A stretch of 42,152 nucleotides of DNA from positions 1 to 42,152 of IMG/VR virus record IMGVR_UViG_3300005613_000139. One strand, 5' to 3'. Origin of the DNA: a virus. Under the pieces are notes generated by a model that searched no databases, was not told the DNA's origin, and saw nothing but the letters and a program-made list of their open reading frames with translations. The translations under genes and the position numbers were made by a program. Position 1 is the stretch's first letter. Each line of letters begins with the position of its first letter. Shown piece after piece: positions 5,274 to 35,700 of this stretch.

Positions 5274-8200
5274 TTATCCCGAACAACTTTCACAGTTATC
5301 TAATTCTAATGATTGACTTCTAACATAATATATTGTTTTAAGTCATTGTTTCCATGCCTTCATATAATATTTATATAAGTCGGCGGGAGAAGTCTTTTGG
5401 GGATTAATCATCCATTCAAAACTAACTGATTGGTCAATCCATTTCTGTATTGCACTAACTACATCTATAACTCCTCATAGTTCCATATTAACATATTCTG
5501 GATAGAACCAGAAGGTTTCAGGAGAGAGGTTAGGTGCTACAGTAACAGTTGGTGTTATAGCATTAGTCTCTACAAAGTATTTCTTATATATAGGTACAAC
5601 TCAAGCTGACGTTCATACAACAAGCCCTGTGGATGTGTTTGGTGCTGGAGCTGAGTGATAACCGAAACGTGTTCAATATTTCATCATATCCTGTGCAAGC
5701 TCTAAATTAAATGTCTTTGCTACTGGCTGTCAATAAGCGATAGCGTTTGACCATTCACTTCATTCAAACTCTGGATAGGCTCAGCGTTCCTTCGCTAAGT
5801 CAACACTAGCTCTTAATGTTTCATAAGCCAGGTTTTTATATACCTCATCTATAGCTTCTACACTCTCAGGAGTTCAATACATAAGTTTATTCTCGGCGAA
5901 GTATTGCGCCACTCACAAAGTTCATAATCATACAGCTCTATATTTCTTAGCTGTTATTTCAGCTTCCTTTATAGGATAAGCATTCAAATCAATAACATTA
6001 TCAAGACAACGCATAGCAATAGGAACAACCCTTGCGAAGTCTTCTCTAGTATGAACTTTTGCAATATTAATACTAGCAAGATTACATATAACAGTATCAC
6101 CAGACTGATACTTAATACTAATAATTCAATCATCATCTTCTTCAGTTATAAAAGTATTTTCACTTTGATTCTGAGCAATTTCCGTACAATTCCCAGTTAG
6201 TATACCATTAAACATCCCCATATTTCTTTTAGGTTCTGTAAAACAATATGTGTCATGTAATCATTCAACTTCACTAATTCAAGTTATCTTTACAAATTGA
6301 TTAGCTTCTCTTTGAGGCTCTTTTCATTCCCATTTAAGTCTGAATGTTTTAAATCATAATTTACCTAGTTGATTTAATCAATTAGCTGTTATTAATAATC
6401 TATATACAGCTTTGCATTCATATAACATATTTTCTCCACTACCATCATTCTTAGGCATAGGTTGCATTCAAGCGTCTTTCATCTTAGTAATTTTAGCATT
6501 AACTCATAATGTTTGCAACATTAATTGAATTTCTTTTAGGAAATCTAAGTTTGTATTTGCTAATTGTAAAGATTCTGTTCAATTATTATTAGTAATAGTT
6601 CCATCTGCATCTGCAAATCAAGCTAACCAATCTAGTCGATGTTGCATTATATTTAATGCGCTAGGCACTGTATATTTAGGCTGTAGTCCATATCATTCAG
6701 CAACTAATCTATCCTGCTCTTTATTTTCTTTAAAATCAAATAAGAACATATGTTCTAGTTTTTTCTTTTCTCAATATAAATAAATCCTTTGCTTATTATT
6801 CTTAATCTCACAACCATCTCATGAATAGAATCAATTTTCATATCCTCTCATAAATGGTTCAGTTCAATGAATTATAGGTAATTCAAATTTCTGTAGTTTA
6901 TCTCATAACTTCAACTCTCAAGCTCTTATTTCTTCTCATTTATCGTTGTAAAATTTATGATAGGGAGTACATTCTATGGATTGTCAAAATGATGTATCAA
7001 TTTTAATAAGTTCTTGGTCTGTATTAGTTTTAATAACATCAACATCACTCCATTCTTCTCAATTCCATATAGTTTGTTTTGTTCCTTCTAAATCTTTTAT
7101 GTCAAAATATCAACCATTTGTCATTATTTTTGTATCTCATTTAACACATAAGTTAGAACAATAGATAGCTCCTGCGTGTTTATTCGGATTTAAAGCATTA
7201 GCTGTGTCTCTAAAGAAAGCATAAGGCATTCAGGTTTCAACTACACTCTTTAAATAGGTTTTAAATAGGTTTTTAGCTGGTTCAGTGTGCCTTATTTTCA
7301 ATCAAGGCATTTGTTCTAGTTCTTCATAGAACTTATCAAACTCTTCTCAGAAATGGTCTTGTAGTCTCCTACCTGTAACTTCCTCAACTTCTTTAGGACA
7401 GAACATTGTCCATTGTTCACCTTCTTCCATTCTTTTAAAGAATAGGTCTGGGAAACTAACAGCAGGGAATATATCAAAACTCTTACTTCTTATATCTCAT
7501 GTTTCTGTTTGTAAATCTAGAAAGGAGTATATATCGGCGTGGAATATATCAAGTGTTACACTGATTGCTCAAGCTCTTTTTCCCATTTGATTAACAGCTA
7601 TACCAGTGTCATTAATAACTTTTATCCACGGAGTTGTTCATCAACTTAATCAATAAACTCATTTAATCATACTACCCTTAGCCCTAACATTTCACATATA
7701 TACTCACAGTCCTCATCAGTTCTTTGATATTTGAGCCATATTCTCTATATTGTGGTAGATGCTTCTTAAATCATCAGCAGGAGATAGAATAAAACAACTA
7801 CTAAGTTGGCTATTAGGTGTACGTGCATTTAATAGAGTTGGAGTCGGTAGACTTATTTCCGCCGAAGCTGTCATATCATATAGGTTCTTAACAAACTCAA
7901 GTCTATTTTCATCTGCTTCAGGTATTCATAGAAACATAGCATTTACCATATACATATGTTGTGGCATTTCTCTATATTCTCAATTCCTTTCTATTAGATA
8001 ACGTTTCTCATACATATTCACTGTACCATGAGTGTAATCTAAATCATAACTTTCATTTATATATTGTCATAGTTCTTTTATTTCTTCATCGGAATATGTT
8101 TCTAATATTTTCTTATTATATAATTCCTTCTCTGTATAATCGTGTACTAGTTGTACTAAATAGTCTGAGTTATAACATTCATACGAAGGAAAGCCTGTTG

Positions 8201-8477
8201 CTCTACTCCATTTCTTATATAGGTTTTTAATCATAAATCTACCAGCAATATTTTGCCATTTAGTATTCTCTGGCGAGATAAGGTCAATAGCTGATTTAAT
8301 TATCATCTTAGTTATATCTTCTGTGCTTATTCCATCCACTAAGTAGTTATGTAAATTCTCTTCTAATTTTGAATAAGGGCAAGCTGTATTTAATCAATAG
8401 CTTACCCTCTTGTAAAAGGTTTCAATCTTTGCCCAATCAAACTCTTTTTTGTTTCAATCTTTTTTTGTTACTTGCAT
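5274..8477 (-). CDS. nrdA: Ribonucleotide reductase large subunit with intein
   Basis: 1067 codons, of which residues 444-763 are an intein; the spliced protein is 747 aa, normal for class I NrdA. It begins with an ATP-cone ([16 protein letters not shown]). SSCFI carries the first redox Cys, NQMGKRAGA is in the barrel, SNL/CTEI carries the thiyl-radical Cys with flanking N and E, and VICNLASIN the second redox Cys. The C-terminus has the YYVR tyrosine dyad and a CESC tail that is re-reduced by thioredoxin-type donors. These are all family-level assignments from visible motifs. No NrdB is seen in the window, so a host small subunit or one outside the window would be needed. The ATG was chosen for its A/T leader (AAATAAAATA); an in-frame ATG at 8570 would add 31 residues including CSCGMSGVC. 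Confidence 0.95.
6189..7148 (-). other. Intein with LAGLIDADG endonuclease inside nrdA
   Basis: 320 codons. The N-terminal splice block starts CVKGDTKI (Cys1), and block B is IECTPYHKF. The endonuclease blocks are FYSGDGC and LAGFADADG. The C-terminal block is [14 protein letters not shown]...FNGILTGN with terminal Asn followed by Cys+1. The +1 residue is the catalytic thiyl-radical Cys of the reductase (SNL|CTEI). The penultimate residue is Gly rather than the usual His. Gly codons inside the intein, including one in LAGFADADG, are TGA, so the intein is adapted to this code. Splicing should be required for reductase activity. Confidence 0.95.
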
Positions 8478-8611
8478 TATTTTATTTGTGTTATTACATA
8501 CGCCCGACATTCCGCACGAGCAAATAAGTTTAGGTTTAGTTGCACATTGGCGAGGAATAGATATATCCATCGTAGTAGTACATATATGTCTATGTATAGG
8601 AGATGGATTAT

Positions 8612-8914
8612 TTATTTTCTTAATCATTGTAGCCAGTCTATCATTCTAGTAGTAAATTTTAATCTACTATTAGATAATTTAATATAATTATTAATATCTT
8701 CATCAATTCTTTTAGCTTTTAATTCAAGATAGTAATTAATAGATATTATTTCTGAACTAGTATAATTTTTCTTATTATCTAATGTATAAAAAACCATTTC
8801 AATTCATGCTTTATTCTGAATTGTTATTCATTCTATTTTATATCTCTTTGCAGTATATGCTGGTCGTCATTCTTGTAAAAATACTTGCTCTCATATTTGA
8901 TATTTAGTTTCCAT
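8612..8914 (-). CDS. Hypothetical protein, 100 aa
   Basis: ATG to TAA with five TGA read as Gly. Charged, mixed alpha/beta; N-terminal METKYQIGEQVFLQEGRP, C-terminal helix ending DWLQGLRK. The start follows AAAATAAATAAT. It lies one base after the stop of the upstream gene and 134 nt before nrdA. No family recognised. Confidence 0.75.
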
Positions 8915-9346: not shown

Positions 9347-10213
9347 CTATGCCCTTTTCCATATAAATCAATATGATTGTTTATATTTTCAATCACAAGC
9401 ATTATATATATTACTATTATTATATCATAATACTCTTTCAACTTCCATAACTCATCATTCCCACTCTTTTATTAATTCTCATTTTAATGAATATTGATAA
9501 ACTGTTTTTCATCATATAATATGTCTTCATTTTTTCACCTTATCATCTATATTATCTTGAGCTGTTCAAATAAATAAATTAGTAGCTACATTATTATAAG
9601 GATTATCATCTATATGACATACGTGCATTCATTCTATATCTCATATAAATGCTTCTGCGACAAGTCTATGTATATATTCTTTTTTAGATTTTCAAATTGT
9701 TATTTTATAATATCAATTTCAATTATCTACTCATGTTAATATTTTTCAATTTCGTCCTTTAATTCTTCATTTACTACTAACTATATATCATTTATATAAT
9801 CCAGATTCACGCCACACTTCTTCTCATTTTTTAATAGCTCTTCTCTGTTTATTTTCTTGTTGAGTTTTTATATAATGACATTGATGACATAATGCTTCAA
9901 ATCAGTCAGCTCATACAAAACATCTCTCTATCCAATTATCATATGTAGTAAATCCAGTTACTGGTACAACCTCTCTTATATGGTCTGCTTGTATATTCTT
10001 TCTCTTTTTTTTCTTTCAAGCTTCAGGAGGAAGTGTTAATGGTCAAACAGTTCAGCATTGCTCACATTTATATTTACCTCTCCCCACTCTTGCTCTAGCT
10101 ATAGCTTCTTGTTTGGGTTTCCGCCAGCGTGAAGCTTGTCTAAGTGCTGATATAATACGGCTCTTAAACTCAGCGGGGGATAGGTTAGTATCAAAAGGTT
10201 TTGTTTTAGTCAT
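9347..10213 (-). CDS. Double HNH homing endonuclease (HNH + NUMOD4/HNH_3/NUMOD1)
   Basis: 288 aa. The N-terminal ~110 residues are a phage-type HNH nuclease: KYKCEQCG...ADHIREVVPVTGF...EALCHQCH, with two CxxC zinc pairs. A second nuclease follows: NUMOD4-like (EEVWRESGLYKGYIVSSKGRI), HNH_3 (IHRLVAEAFIG...MHVCHIDDNPYNN) and a C-terminal NUMOD1 DNA-binding module (VYQYSLKGELIKEWEG...YGFIWKRA). The frame is continuous only with UGA=Gly. The ATG was chosen because it overlaps the upstream stop (ATGACTAA); ATG 10231 is an alternative. The two nuclease types look fused, possibly from an insertion of one gene into another. Confidence 0.85.
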
Positions 10214-10481
10214 TAAATCATTTTTTATCATTACCAAATATTTGTCTAGTGTGTATCATCCTATCTAAATTGTCTCTTTCTCTAGTATTAGTTATTATTC
10301 ATTTAACTAATTTATCTGTTGTCATACTTTCAATTTCATCTAATATAGAGAGTAGGTAGTCTCTTTGCATATTCGCAAATTTAAGCTCCTTTACCGATGT
10401 AGTAAATAATGAATTATAATGGTCTTCCATTTCTTTATAATATATATACCACCTTTTGTAGTATTGTTTATTCTTTTTCAA
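10206..10481 (-). CDS. Hypothetical helical protein, 91 aa
   Basis: Helical, rich in Lys/Tyr at the N-terminus (KKNKQYYKRWYIYYKE), then LLSILDEIESMTTDKLVK and a C-terminal basic tail reached through a TGA=Gly. It starts at TTG overlapping the end of the upstream gene by 14 nt; ATG 10430 would give 74 aa. Function unknown. Confidence 0.6.
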
Positions 10482-12858: not shown

Positions 12859-12941
12859 TGGTCGGAAGCGGCTGGACTCGAACCAGCAATCTCCAGAGGG
12901 GTAAAGTCCTCTAGCGCATTACCATTTATGCTATCGCCCCG
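12859..12941 (-). tRNA. tRNA-like gene with abnormal anticodon arm
   Basis: Canonical D arm (GCAT/ATGC with AAATGGTA loop), five-base variable loop, T arm (GCTGG TTCGAGT CCAGC) and encoded ACCA end. Two departures: the acceptor stem pairs only with a bulged C, and the anticodon arm is CTAGAGG/CCTCTGG around an 8-nt loop ACTTTACC. With a standard 5-bp stem the loop has 12 nt instead of 7. The anticodon is therefore ambiguous (UUA would read UAA; UUU would read Lys but lacks U33). It is not the UCA needed for UGA=Gly. Confidence 0.65.
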
Positions 12942-26584: not shown

Positions 26585-27112
26585 TTATTTTCTTAATTTA
26601 TAAATTTCCTTTGTTAGCTTTGTAATTTCTCTATTAATTTCCATAATTCTATCTGCTTTCCTAAAAGATTCTTTTAAGTCTGCATCTAATGGCTTAATTT
26701 TCATAAGCTTTTGTATTTTTTCTAAATATTCTCTATCTTTTTCTTCCTGCTTTTTTCTTTTTTGTTCTTTCTCTTCTTCTTTTCTTATCTTTTCCTTCTC
26801 TTCTTGTTGCTCTATATAATATTTGACTATTTCCTTTTGCATAGGAGATAGTCAAGATGTTGATATATACCAAGTAATTCAATCATACTTATAATAATAG
26901 CTATCAACATAAGCTGACATTGTATTAATATCACAGGATTTAGATATATGAAAAGAGCCAGTCCTTTCTCATTTAGGCAAAGAAGGTGAGGTGTAATATA
27001 AATTACTATCCTTCTCTCTCACTTTAAATAGTCAATTAGCTATATCATTCTCAACTAATTCCTTTACCATACTTTCATATTTCTCTTTAGGTGTTTTTTT
27101 AAACCATCACAT
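26585..27112 (-). CDS. Hypothetical protein with long charged helix, 175 aa
   Basis: Starts ATG TGA TGG (Met-Gly-Trp). Residues 1-90 form a mixed domain (YYTSPSLPKGERTGSFHI); residues 95-175 are a continuous Lys/Glu coiled coil. Next to the lysis enzyme gene. Function unknown. Confidence 0.75.
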
Positions 27113-29564: not shown

Positions 29565-29886
29565 TCTTCAGGGTTAGTTCGCCGAGACAAACTACTTTCC
29601 GTTTCCCTGTAGTTTATAGACTCAGGTCGTCTTTATGTTCATTAACATCATCTATTCTATATATGCATCCCCTTTTGACTAGTATTAAAAGCGAATACTT
29701 AGGCTGAGGAGCTACCTCATTTACTCTTACCTCTTAAATTTTCTTTATATCCTTTAAAAATCACTTATATAGAATAGATGATGTTAATGAACCTTATATA
29801 GTGTTCTAGTGTTCTAAGCTCTTTTATATATACTTGCTAATGTTAAGCGTGTAAGCTTTGTTATAGTGTATATATTTTTATGAGCT
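29565..29886 (-). ncRNA. Structured leader or non-coding RNA
   Basis: Transcribed from the promoter at 29893-29920. It contains a perfect 27-bp inverted repeat (29637-29663 with 29766-29792, 102-nt loop). In the loop is a hairpin TGAGG/CCTCA, and just past the stem an AAACTAC/GTAGTTT hairpin and a TCGCCGA word. No convincing ORF inside, and G+C is higher than the flanks. It could be a phage regulatory RNA, an attenuated leader for the gene at 29451, or an origin structure. Confidence 0.5.
29637..29792. repeat. 27-bp perfect inverted repeat
   Basis: Arms 29637-29663 and 29766-29792, core CATCATCTATTCTATATA and its complement. No mismatches. Confidence 0.95.
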
Positions 29887-32287: not shown

Positions 32288-33792
32288 ATGAAGGAAATAG
32301 AAAACAAGTCTCAACAAGAAATTGAGATTTTATATAATAAGATATTAGAGAGAAAGAAAAACTATTGAATAATAGACTTCGTTCCGCACGAGAAGCAACA
32401 ACTTCTTATTGATGCTATAAGTAAGCTACATAATGTAGAGGGTAACTTATTACCAGTATATACTTGGTTATTGTTTCAATGAGGTAACTGAGCATGAAAG
32501 ACAGCTATAGCTTTATACATAGCTGTACTATTTGCGTTATGAAATTTAACTAAGGAATACAACCTACCATATATAGGAAGTAAGAAGAAAATATTTATAT
32601 GAACTGAATCGGGGGAGAACTTAAAAAACTCAATTATGCCCTATCTCACATGAGAGTTTAGTAATATACGTATTCCGCCAGAAGCTATTAAGAAGATAAA
32701 CCAAGATAACTGAATAGTAAAGAGAATAACTCTACATAATTGATGTATAATAAATTTCTTTACATACGACCAAGGGCGTAAGAGAATACAAGGTACGAAT
32801 GGTGACCTCTATCTATTAGATGAAGAACCAGTTGATACAGCTATATTCACAGAAGCTTTAGCTCGTACCAGAAATAAATGAGTACAGATGTTATTGTCGT
32901 TTACACCATTAAGTGGTTACACGGCGAGTTATGAATATTTCTATGAGCAAGAGAGTGAGAAGATAAGAGAGAGAAGTTATGTACAACTTGTCAACTCAAA
33001 TGATAATCATCATGCTGACCATACGTGGGCTGATTGATTAACTCCGCAAGAAAGGAAGATGAGGCTTGAATGACTATTTACACCACCAAGTGGACTAGTC
33101 TATCCCAACTTCAATAGAGACAAACACACTCTCCCTTACTTCGACCCGAAGGAATTGGGTAATGTACGTTTCTATGCAGGACTGGATTTCTGAGTTAGTC
33201 ATCCGATGGCTTTCACACCGATAGCTGTAGATGAGGATGAGAATTTATATATATTTGATTTAATATATGAATCTGAGCTTCTAATAAAAGACCTAGCTAA
33301 AAAAATAAGAGAGATGGAAGCTAAGTATTGAATTGAGTTTGAATATATAATAGCTGACTCCGCAGGTAAGAGAGAACGTACAGAATTAAAGAACTACTGA
33401 ATAGACACTGTCGCCGCAGATAAATGGAGCAAGGGTGAAAACTGAGACAGTAATAGAAGAGCTTGAATAATGAAAGTTAATCAACTTCTACATGATGGTA
33501 AAATATATATAGCTGACCATTTAAAAGAAGCTATAAAGGAATTTGAAAATCACCATTATAAAGACTGATGAAAAAAAGACTGACAAGTGGAGAAGATACA
33601 GGATGACTTCTTGCGAACGTTCCCTGTCTTTAACGAGATGGGGAACAAAAATTGGATAGTTTACGCTATTTCATATTTTCATATAGACCTCCTAAGTATG
33701 TGACTAAAAGAGAATTGGAATATGCTAAAAAATATAAAGAAAAGTACAATCCTAGAGCTAATAAACAGAGTGGAAGAAATAAGCCTTACTAA
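32288..33792 (+). CDS. terL: Terminase large subunit, frame interrupted at 33614-33654
   Basis: Packaging ATPase-nuclease. Walker A FQGGNGAGKT at ~63-72 (three Gly by TGA), Walker B YLLDEEP near 175. The nuclease has Asp1 in AGLDFGVSHP and Asp2 in IIADSAG. The third acidic motif is split: ...KIQDDFL is followed by a 41-nt insert, after which DSLRYFIFSYRPPKYV continues in a different frame to TAA 33790-33792. Joining 32288-33613 to 33655-33792 gives 487 aa with the family-typical DD-x-LD-x-LRY. Reading straight through gives an unrelated tail to TAA 33811 that lacks the third Asp. Confidence 0.92.
33614..33654 (+). other. 41-nt hairpin insert in terL, bypass-like
   Basis: Lies between TTG (33611-33613) and GAT (33655). 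It ends with a second TTG (33652-33654), so take-off and landing codons match. The insert holds a 12-bp hairpin, 33619-33646 (GTTCCCTGTCTT / GAGATGGGGAAC, three wobble pairs, loop TAAC), then AAAAA before the landing codon. 41 nt is not a multiple of three, and an in-gap TAA occurs in the downstream frame. It resembles the translational-bypass elements of T4 gene 60 and of some yeast mitochondria. Confidence 0.7.
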
Positions 33793-33915
33793 GCTTCAAT
33801 TAGTATATTAATTAACCAAGACACCGTAAGGGGTCATCCTGTAGAAAACACAAAAGTCAATTTGGTTTGGTTTAACCATATAAAAAAATAAACCATATTA
33901 ATTAAAACAACAACT

Positions 33916-35700
33916 ATGGCAAGAAAAAAACAACAGAGCCTTCATTATGTAGAGGAACGCTTATTAATATTGAAAGCTATTAAAGCTGAGGACTGACTAG
34001 ATAAGGAAGTGCCGAAGTATAGAAAGTTAGCTAAAGTTAAGAGACTTACTGATAAGAGCCAAGATAAATCAGACTATGCAACTAATGTAGGTTTTAGTGT
34101 TAAAACAACTAAAGATGCAGAATTACTTGCTTGAATGCAGGAATATAATTTCATACCCCTATCTGACGAAGCTAGAAAGAAAGTTGAGTTATTAAAAAGA
34201 ATATGGAAATATCATTGGATTACATCTAAAACAGATAAGAGGTTAAGTAGAGTTGTGCCAGAGAGTACAACAACTTGAACAGGTTGGATGTATGAAGGAC
34301 TTAAAACAATTAAGAGAGAAATTAATGAACCTACTAAAAATGATGATGGTAGTATAAGTTTTGAAAAAAAGGAAGTGCCTACATACGATTGAGTATGGTG
34401 TGAATTCATACCATTTGAAAACTTCTTTATTGACTGAACTGATATAGAAAATTCTAATGAAGCTATATGGGTGAAATTTTGGGATAGGCAAGAGTTCATA
34501 AATGAACACAGGCTTATGCCTTGATATAATACATCTAATATACCATTGGGTAAGGACTACACATATGTATGAAGTGATTGAGACCCAAAGAAATGACAAG
34601 ATGATGAAACAATAGTAACAGAAATTAGATATTATAATAAATCAAAAGACCAATTTATAGTGTTGGCGAATTGAAAAGAAGTTAAGAACTCAGCAATACC
34701 ATTTACACATAAAGAACTTCCTTTTATGCCTTTCTATGATTATCCAGTAGAGGATAGAATATGGGGTATGTGAGAATTTGAACTATTAGCAGAAGATATT
34801 ATATATAAGGATGCTATAAGAAGTTTAAGTATAGATGTTATAAAAGCTCAAATGTGAGTGGTGGCTGTAAATGATGATATAGATTTCGATGAGACTACAT
34901 GGGAATATTGACCATTCTCTTATATGAAGGTGAACGACATCTCAGGGATAAAACATTTCTCGCCGAACATATCAACTAATGCAATAGATAATGCAGAACA
35001 AAAAGTAGATAATGATATAATTAGTAAAACTGGTGTTGATTTCAAAAGTCAACTATTATCTCCTAATGAGACAGCAACTAGAACCGCAGCTAAGAGTCAG
35101 AGCAGTAAGAAACGTATAAACCTAAACTTAAAAATAAATGGTTACAACTTCTTTGAAAGACTTGCTCGTCTTAGACTTAGTAATATAAGACTATGGCATA
35201 GTAATAAAGATAAGGTGGAAATACCTGTTGAAGGTGGTAACATAAAAGAAGACTGAACATTTGAACCAATTAATGGTTGATATGGTTCACTAACTGTTAC
35301 ACCTGATATGATAACTGAAGAATATAACATAGTACCTATCACTGATTCAATATTATGAGCCACTGAAGAAAGAGAAAAGAATAAAGCTATTGAAGCTGTA
35401 CAACTTCTTTCTTGAATGGTATGAGCTGATTGAAAACCAGTGTTTGATTGAACTAAACTTTGAGAATTTCTAGCTGATAGACTACATATAGATTTTATAA
35501 AACTATCATGAAAAGAATGAGCTAGTAAAGACCCTTCTTCAATATTAGATGAAATTGATAAACAAGACAAGTGAATTAGTACATGAGCTAATGACCCATC
35601 AAGTCCAGATTTCATTCCACCAGAACAAAGAAGTGGAGCGAGTAAATGAGTAAGTTTATCATGACAACAAGTGGTAAGTGATTCAGATATACTTTCATAA
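33916..35700 (+). CDS. Portal protein
   Basis: 594 aa. The position after terL, the length and the layout fit a phage portal: a helical N-terminus, beta-rich wing with conserved Trp/Tyr-rich segments (WCEFIPFENFFIDG, VEDRIWGMGEFELLAEDIIYKDAIRSL), and a long C-terminal helix region (NIRLWHSNKDK, SSILDEIDKQDK). It forms the DNA channel in the capsid vertex. About 40 TGA=Gly. The 104 nt upstream have no gene, only a GGTTTA/TAAACC inverted repeat. Confidence 0.8.

Follow-up and report, generated by a model that had tools for sequence, protein, structure and literature searches.

The question raised by this locus is whether a phage gene for the terminase large subunit (terL), interrupted by 41 nucleotides immediately ahead of the codon for a putative catalytic residue, can still give rise to a full-length protein. 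The gene is found in a virus record of 42,152 bases, which was analysed in full and is called the window here; its open reading frames require UGA to be read as glycine (genetic code 25) in order to stay open, and its hosts are bacteria that use UGA in this way. The first part of terL (plus strand, 32288-33613) contains 442 codons under code 25 and ends with the residues KIQDDFL; it matches Terminase_6N of Pfam (1.5e-7), which covers the N-terminal ATPase part, and the PHROG terminase large subunit (1.7e-28). At the upstream junction the sequence is GAT GAC TTC TTG, ending at 33613. The insert follows (plus strand, 33614-33654; CGAACGTTCCCTGTCTTTAACGAGATGGGGAACAAAAATTG) and, being 41 nt long (2 modulo 3), disrupts the frame. 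The second part (plus strand, 33655-33792) opens with GAT AGT TTA CGC TAT in a frame other than that of the first, is translated as DSLRYFIFSYRPPKY...NKPY and is closed by TAA at 33790-33792. A preliminary description had reported KIQDDFL ending in TTG, then 41 nt in which a 12-bp hairpin and another TTG are found, then a new frame, and the sequence is indeed as described.

Comparison with L001 and L002, the two nearest relatives, which also use code 25, share the gene order and are 57-58% identical, indicates what the uninterrupted gene looks like. In both, the insert is absent, DDFLDALRYFIFGYK is unbroken and DDFLDALRY is continuous. The 45 codons following the insert align without gaps to the tails of both relatives over their whole length (45/45), with 21 identical residues and a shared stop position; the alignment to L001 scores 123, against a maximum of 49 for shuffled sequences. 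As noted in the preliminary description, deletion of the insert gives DDFLDSLRY. Conversely, if translation simply continues in frame 0, it does not stop at once, but proceeds for 65 codons to 33811 (plus strand, 33614-33811), producing a tail that scores like shuffled sequence, lacks similarity to TerL and fails to align, in agreement with the earlier view of it as unrelated and devoid of the motif.

The TerL nuclease is a C-terminal RNase H-like domain, whose third aspartate is found in the motif D-A/S-L-R-Y. Terminase_6C of Pfam is matched by the L001 (4.5e-5) and L002 (4.5e-7) proteins and covers the aspartate of D[A/S]LRY, while the frame-0 protein of the window has no match at E <= 1. 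The identification of this residue as the third of the nuclease rests on the Terminase_6C match together with established TerL biochemistry, and in the window this aspartate lies in the second part; an AlphaFold model of L001 TerL was too poor (pLDDT 40) to place the residue and was left unused. Identity between the window and its relatives falls from 60% before the insert to 47% after it; since the same drop is found between L001 and L002 (from 86% to 78%), the second part does not display any clear additional decay. The rest of the head region is also preserved. The portal gene (plus strand, 33916-35700) is the next gene after terL, as in the relatives, and is intact, full-length and 55-56% identical to its counterparts; the adjoining head genes are intact, syntenic and uninterrupted. 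The spacer between terL and portal (33793-33915) is 123 nt long, about 100 nt longer than in L001 and L002 (about 12-30 nt). A single terL is present, and the duplicate intact copy that would have undermined the earlier proposal was not found anywhere in the 42,152-base record.

The insert is a singleton among the searched sequences, and no relative carries it. The search covered IMG/VR, GTDB genomes and phage records, a scope that possibly leaves records very near the window outside it. No second copy is present in the window, and neither an exact nor a stem-degenerate search found any match in IMG/VR; distant blastn of the region against phage records returned nothing relevant. A scan of IMG/VR for terL genes with 20-50 nt inserted between DDFL or DDFF and D-x-L-R-Y, covering only motifs starting with a GAT codon, found 57 stretches, and those with an open upstream frame were not terminase-like. 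Searches for relatives with protein, portal, C-terminal and central-motif patterns gave only L001, L002 and two distant matches with 25-31% identity; some of the automatic patterns contained glycine and would miss glycine encoded by TGA, and the later ones left glycine positions open. No relative was found in GTDB genomes, nor by sequence in the PDB. The search did not bring to light any relative combining the insert with a decayed terL, a finding that would have spoken against a functional gap, nor the recurrence of the hairpin that the preliminary description had suggested looking for: there is no copy of the insert elsewhere in the window, and the terL genes of L001 and L002 lack it.

The insert has the layout CGAAC-GTTCCCTGTCTT-TAAC-GAGATGGGGAAC-AAAAA-TTG and is richer in GC than the genome (44% vs 30%). 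Its central part forms a 12-bp hairpin (plus strand, 33619-33646; arms 33619-33630 and 33635-33646) with a UAAC loop and three G-U pairs, starting 5 nt past the TTG that ends the first part and 2 nt past the CGA codon that follows it. At -17.1 kcal/mol, it is part of the fold that ranks second in strength among all 41-nt folds on the two strands of the window, with a local z-score of -3.35, and it exceeds chance expectation; the other strongest hairpin (26822-26856) lies inside a plain coding ORF and was discarded. A smaller predicted hairpin, GGAUAGU/UUAC/GCUAUUU (plus strand, 33654-33671), is weak taken alone, but occupies the position where T4 gene 60 has its 3' stem-loop. The gap is bounded by matched codons: the putative take-off codon TTG (Leu; plus strand, 33611-33613) and the putative landing codon TTG (plus strand, 33652-33654), the sole UUG of the insert. 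TTG is infrequent as a codon (60/11,491, or 0.5%), as compared to 1.8% of trinucleotides.

With TTG in the ribosomal P site, the A site would be occupied by CGA (plus strand, 33614-33616). Among the 11,491 codons of the listed ORFs, no other sense codon is as rare as CGA (6) and CGG (3), whereas CGA is counted 50 and 72 times in the two remaining frames; in the late module the two codons are absent (0/3,031). One of the six in-frame CGA codons is found in an intein-like region of the ribonucleotide reductase (RNR) large subunit gene and one in the ORF of an HNH endonuclease. CGA is not strictly unused genome-wide, but its rarity is what a bypass model would ask for. The chance of finding it at the junction from base composition, estimated post hoc, is roughly 0.3-1.5%. 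The relatives differ in this respect, with CGA at 20/2,757 codons in L001 and 3/2,060 in L002; the former figure indicates that some code-25 hosts decode the codon. In related bacteria CGA is predicted to be reassigned to Trp (PMC8629427), and the in-frame avoidance of CGA and CGG across all ORFs of the window resembles that of code-25 bacteria with predicted reassignment. The window also contains a tRNA-like gene (minus strand, 12864-12940; Rfam 35.4 bits) with no encoded CCA and an enlarged anticodon arm, with either a 7-bp stem and a loop of 8 nt or 3 additional nt resembling an intron; ARAGORN calls it only when introns are allowed (Val, tac). A possible role of this gene as a suppressor was considered, and no convincing link emerged.

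A second structure joins the take-off site to the region downstream of the gene. The stretch 33597-33615 (plus strand), formed by the 14 nt before the take-off codon, the codon itself and the 2 nt with which the insert begins, is complementary to 33825-33843 (plus strand), beyond the terL stop and within the spacer before portal. All 19 pairs obey the rules of RNA pairing (three are G-U), and this helix accounts for most of the fold z-score of -4.64 calculated for 33560-33915. In dinucleotide shuffles, helices of 19 bp or more are expected 0.35 times per 42-kb strand, and those with at least 8 GC pairs did not occur in 20 shuffles; the chance that an arm falls on the take-off junction is about 3e-4 (0.35 x 38 arm bases/42,152), or about 2e-3 when a larger area around the junction is considered. 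Thus, both the local and the long-range helix are unusual for this genome. The longest comparable helices in L001 and L002 are of 12 and 10 bp. The long helix could bias movement forward by re-forming behind the ribosome; it could also serve otherwise, for example in mRNA processing between terL and portal. In a separate part of the window, a perfect 27-bp inverted repeat was noted, with arms at 29637-29663 and 29766-29792, 102 nt apart.

A reading that brings these elements together is that the 41 nt form a coding gap, bypassed by a share of the ribosomes, with TTG to TTG as a candidate for programmed bypassing; we give it an even chance. A ribosome that has translated up to Leu442, its P site occupied by UUG, would pause at the near-unused A-site CGA and at the hairpin; peptidyl-tRNA-Leu would release UUG, the mRNA would slide past the hairpin, and the tRNA would re-pair with the only UUG of the gap (33652-33654), so that decoding would restart in the new frame with GAT and yield ...DDFL-DSLRYFIF... 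Meanwhile, the upstream strand of the 19-bp helix could re-form behind the ribosome and may favour its forward motion, in a manner comparable to the 5' stem-loop of T4 gene 60. The product would be a full-length TerL with all three nuclease motifs. We infer each of these kinetic steps, as well as the viability of the phage, from the anatomy of the locus. The more specific proposal, that a bacterial-type ribosome using code 25 bypasses the 41 nt with a near-abandoned sense codon, CGA, as the trigger and with the help of a helix spanning the take-off site, is put forward tentatively, and we hold it to be less probable than bypassing as such.

Bypassing is favoured because the second frame has remained open, aligns with both relatives without gaps and shares their end codon, while the protein that is not rejoined loses its Terminase_6C signature; because no second terL is present and the head genes are intact and syntenic; and because matched TTG codons flank the gap, a strongly avoided CGA stands in the A site, the hairpin of the insert ranks in the top two of the local folds across 42 kb and the 19-bp helix sits on the take-off junction. 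Moreover, T4 gene 60 employs similar parts (PMC11194080). It is weakened by being known from a single sequence with no relative carrying the insert, by the lack of a stop codon after take-off and of any evident basic nascent peptide of the T4 kind, and by the normal use of CGA in L001 and its occasional use in L002; in addition, the model does not predict a long-range helix, and matched TTG codons would be expected, too, from an insertion that duplicates 3 bp of its target. The preliminary description had left the choice between a skipped gap and a remnant: bypassing is now the best single explanation, strengthened by CGA and the 19-bp helix, but the stop and nascent-peptide signals of T4 are not found.

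The main rival is a recent disabling insertion, in which a small palindromic element or a mobile-element remnant entered the gene with a 3-bp TTG target duplication and left terL dead, the contig then deriving from a defective or helper-dependent phage. Such an event predicts the duplicated TTG and the hairpin as well as bypassing does, and agrees with the absence of the insert from both relatives and with its GC-richness compared to the surroundings. Potential mobile elements are indeed present in the genome: the RNR large subunit gene (minus strand, 5274-8627) carries an intein-like insertion with LAGLIDADG at about aa 500-742, and an HNH_3 endonuclease ORF (minus strand, 9347-10237), which contains a single CGA out of the six and a single CGG out of the three counted, is located near it; a mobile-element origin has also been suggested for the gap of T4 gene 60 (PMC5009743). 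However, no further copy was found in the window or, as searched, in IMG/VR, neither the rest of terL nor the head genes are decayed, and the CGA at the junction and the long helix would be left as coincidences. Furthermore, the departures from Watson-Crick pairing in the stems are G-U, a pair that suits RNA only, so that the stems resemble neither a palindrome in DNA nor inverted copies produced by faulty assembly. For these reasons a disabling insertion is judged unlikely, though a serious contender. An assembly or sequencing artefact, conceivable for a single metagenomic contig known only as assembled sequence, is given a slim chance: inverted copies would be local and perfectly complementary, while here the stems hold G-U pairs and the insert matches nothing else in the window.

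The other explanations accept the insert as real and are, like an assembly error, less likely than either bypassing or a disabling insertion. In a -1 frameshift, or in transcript slippage, on the A5 run (33647-33651), about 14 extra residues would be retained and the frame restored, giving peptides from RTFPVFNEMGNK joined to LDSLRY; the arithmetic is favourable, since 41 nt plus one repeated base make 14 codons and AAAAA abuts the new frame, but C AAA AAT does not fit the X XXY YYZ pattern, the strong hairpin precedes A5 rather than following it, five adenines are few for polymerase slippage and the added residues would directly precede the catalytic Asp, all of which leaves this reading improbable. 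Removal of the 41 nt from the mRNA by splicing, or by endonuclease cleavage and religation, could draw on the strong local fold, in which a lower stem, separated by a 7x7 internal loop, places the two ends in proximity; it is very improbable, as the segment falls well below the length of any group I or II intron, the region has no Rfam match and the ends do not form a bulge-helix-bulge (3-nt bulges flanking 4 bp). A hit to SNORD24 in Rfam, far below the gathering score, was set aside as due to chance. Finally, two polypeptides might be made: frame 0 would give a TerL whose tail is different, and initiation at UUG 33652 a C-terminal peptide of 46 aa, the two either complementing each other in trans or regulating the amount of nuclease-competent TerL. 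A GGGG upstream of the UUG and the 65 open codons of frame 0 are compatible with this arrangement; however, the GGGG is within the hairpin stem and a lone 46-aa fragment with one catalytic residue is unlikely to fold, making it the least probable of all.

In T4 gene 60, ribosomes bypass 50 nt from GGA to GGA, with UAG following the take-off codon. The terL gap resembles it in being a frame-changing, non-coding segment of a phage gene that homologues lack, in having identical take-off and landing codons (TTG 33611-33613 and TTG 33652-33654) and in the hairpin placed right after take-off, with further predicted structure on both sides, namely the long-range pairing upstream and the weak hairpin (33654-33671) downstream. 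Differently from T4, the sense codon CGA takes the place of the stop codon after the take-off TTG, and may do its job; no strong local 5' stem-loop precedes the gap, where the upstream strand is engaged in the 19-bp long-range pairing instead, and no nascent-peptide signal like KKYK of T4, at 25-30 aa, is evident in terL. The T4 system combines matched codons, stalled take-off, an A-site hairpin and stem-loops on both sides (PMC11194080); the terL gap appears to have several, not all, of the T4 features and may be regarded as a candidate member of the same class.

Known cases of bypassing are few, and according to a 2016 review the only efficient and established ones are T4 gene 60 and yeast mitochondria (PMC5009743). 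In the mitochondria of Magnusiomyces capitatus, which contain 81 inserts, an unused codon is found in the A site (PMC5009743). The terL gap shares with this system a short block in an otherwise normal gene, a rare or unused A-site codon and a deviant genetic code; conversely, the mitochondrial inserts form a dispersed family, while a single one with no second copy is found in the window, and the candidate described here would involve a bacterial-type ribosome. If bypassing does take place in terL, it would be a third case, occurring in a phage whose bacterial hosts have altered their genetic code, and linking bypassing to codon loss; TTG-CGA-hairpin-TTG would represent a compact and testable set of signals, codon abandonment during genetic-code drift would, with CGA as the trigger, be the source of a programmed bypass, and automated annotation would be discarding working, essential phage genes as broken. 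The suggestion that this is the first such case is valid at most with regard to code-25 phages and to CGA as the trigger, since bypassing at a UUA codon had already been proposed, though not proven, for the terminase gene of Streptomyces phage phiHau3 (PMC5009743). Also there, the broken frame is that of a phage terminase large subunit and a rare codon is implicated; the codon is a different one, no sequence is shared, and the break is not at the nuclease motif but near the N-terminal KGWG of the ATPase, the frame in the phiHau3 record breaking after KGWG at about codon 98.
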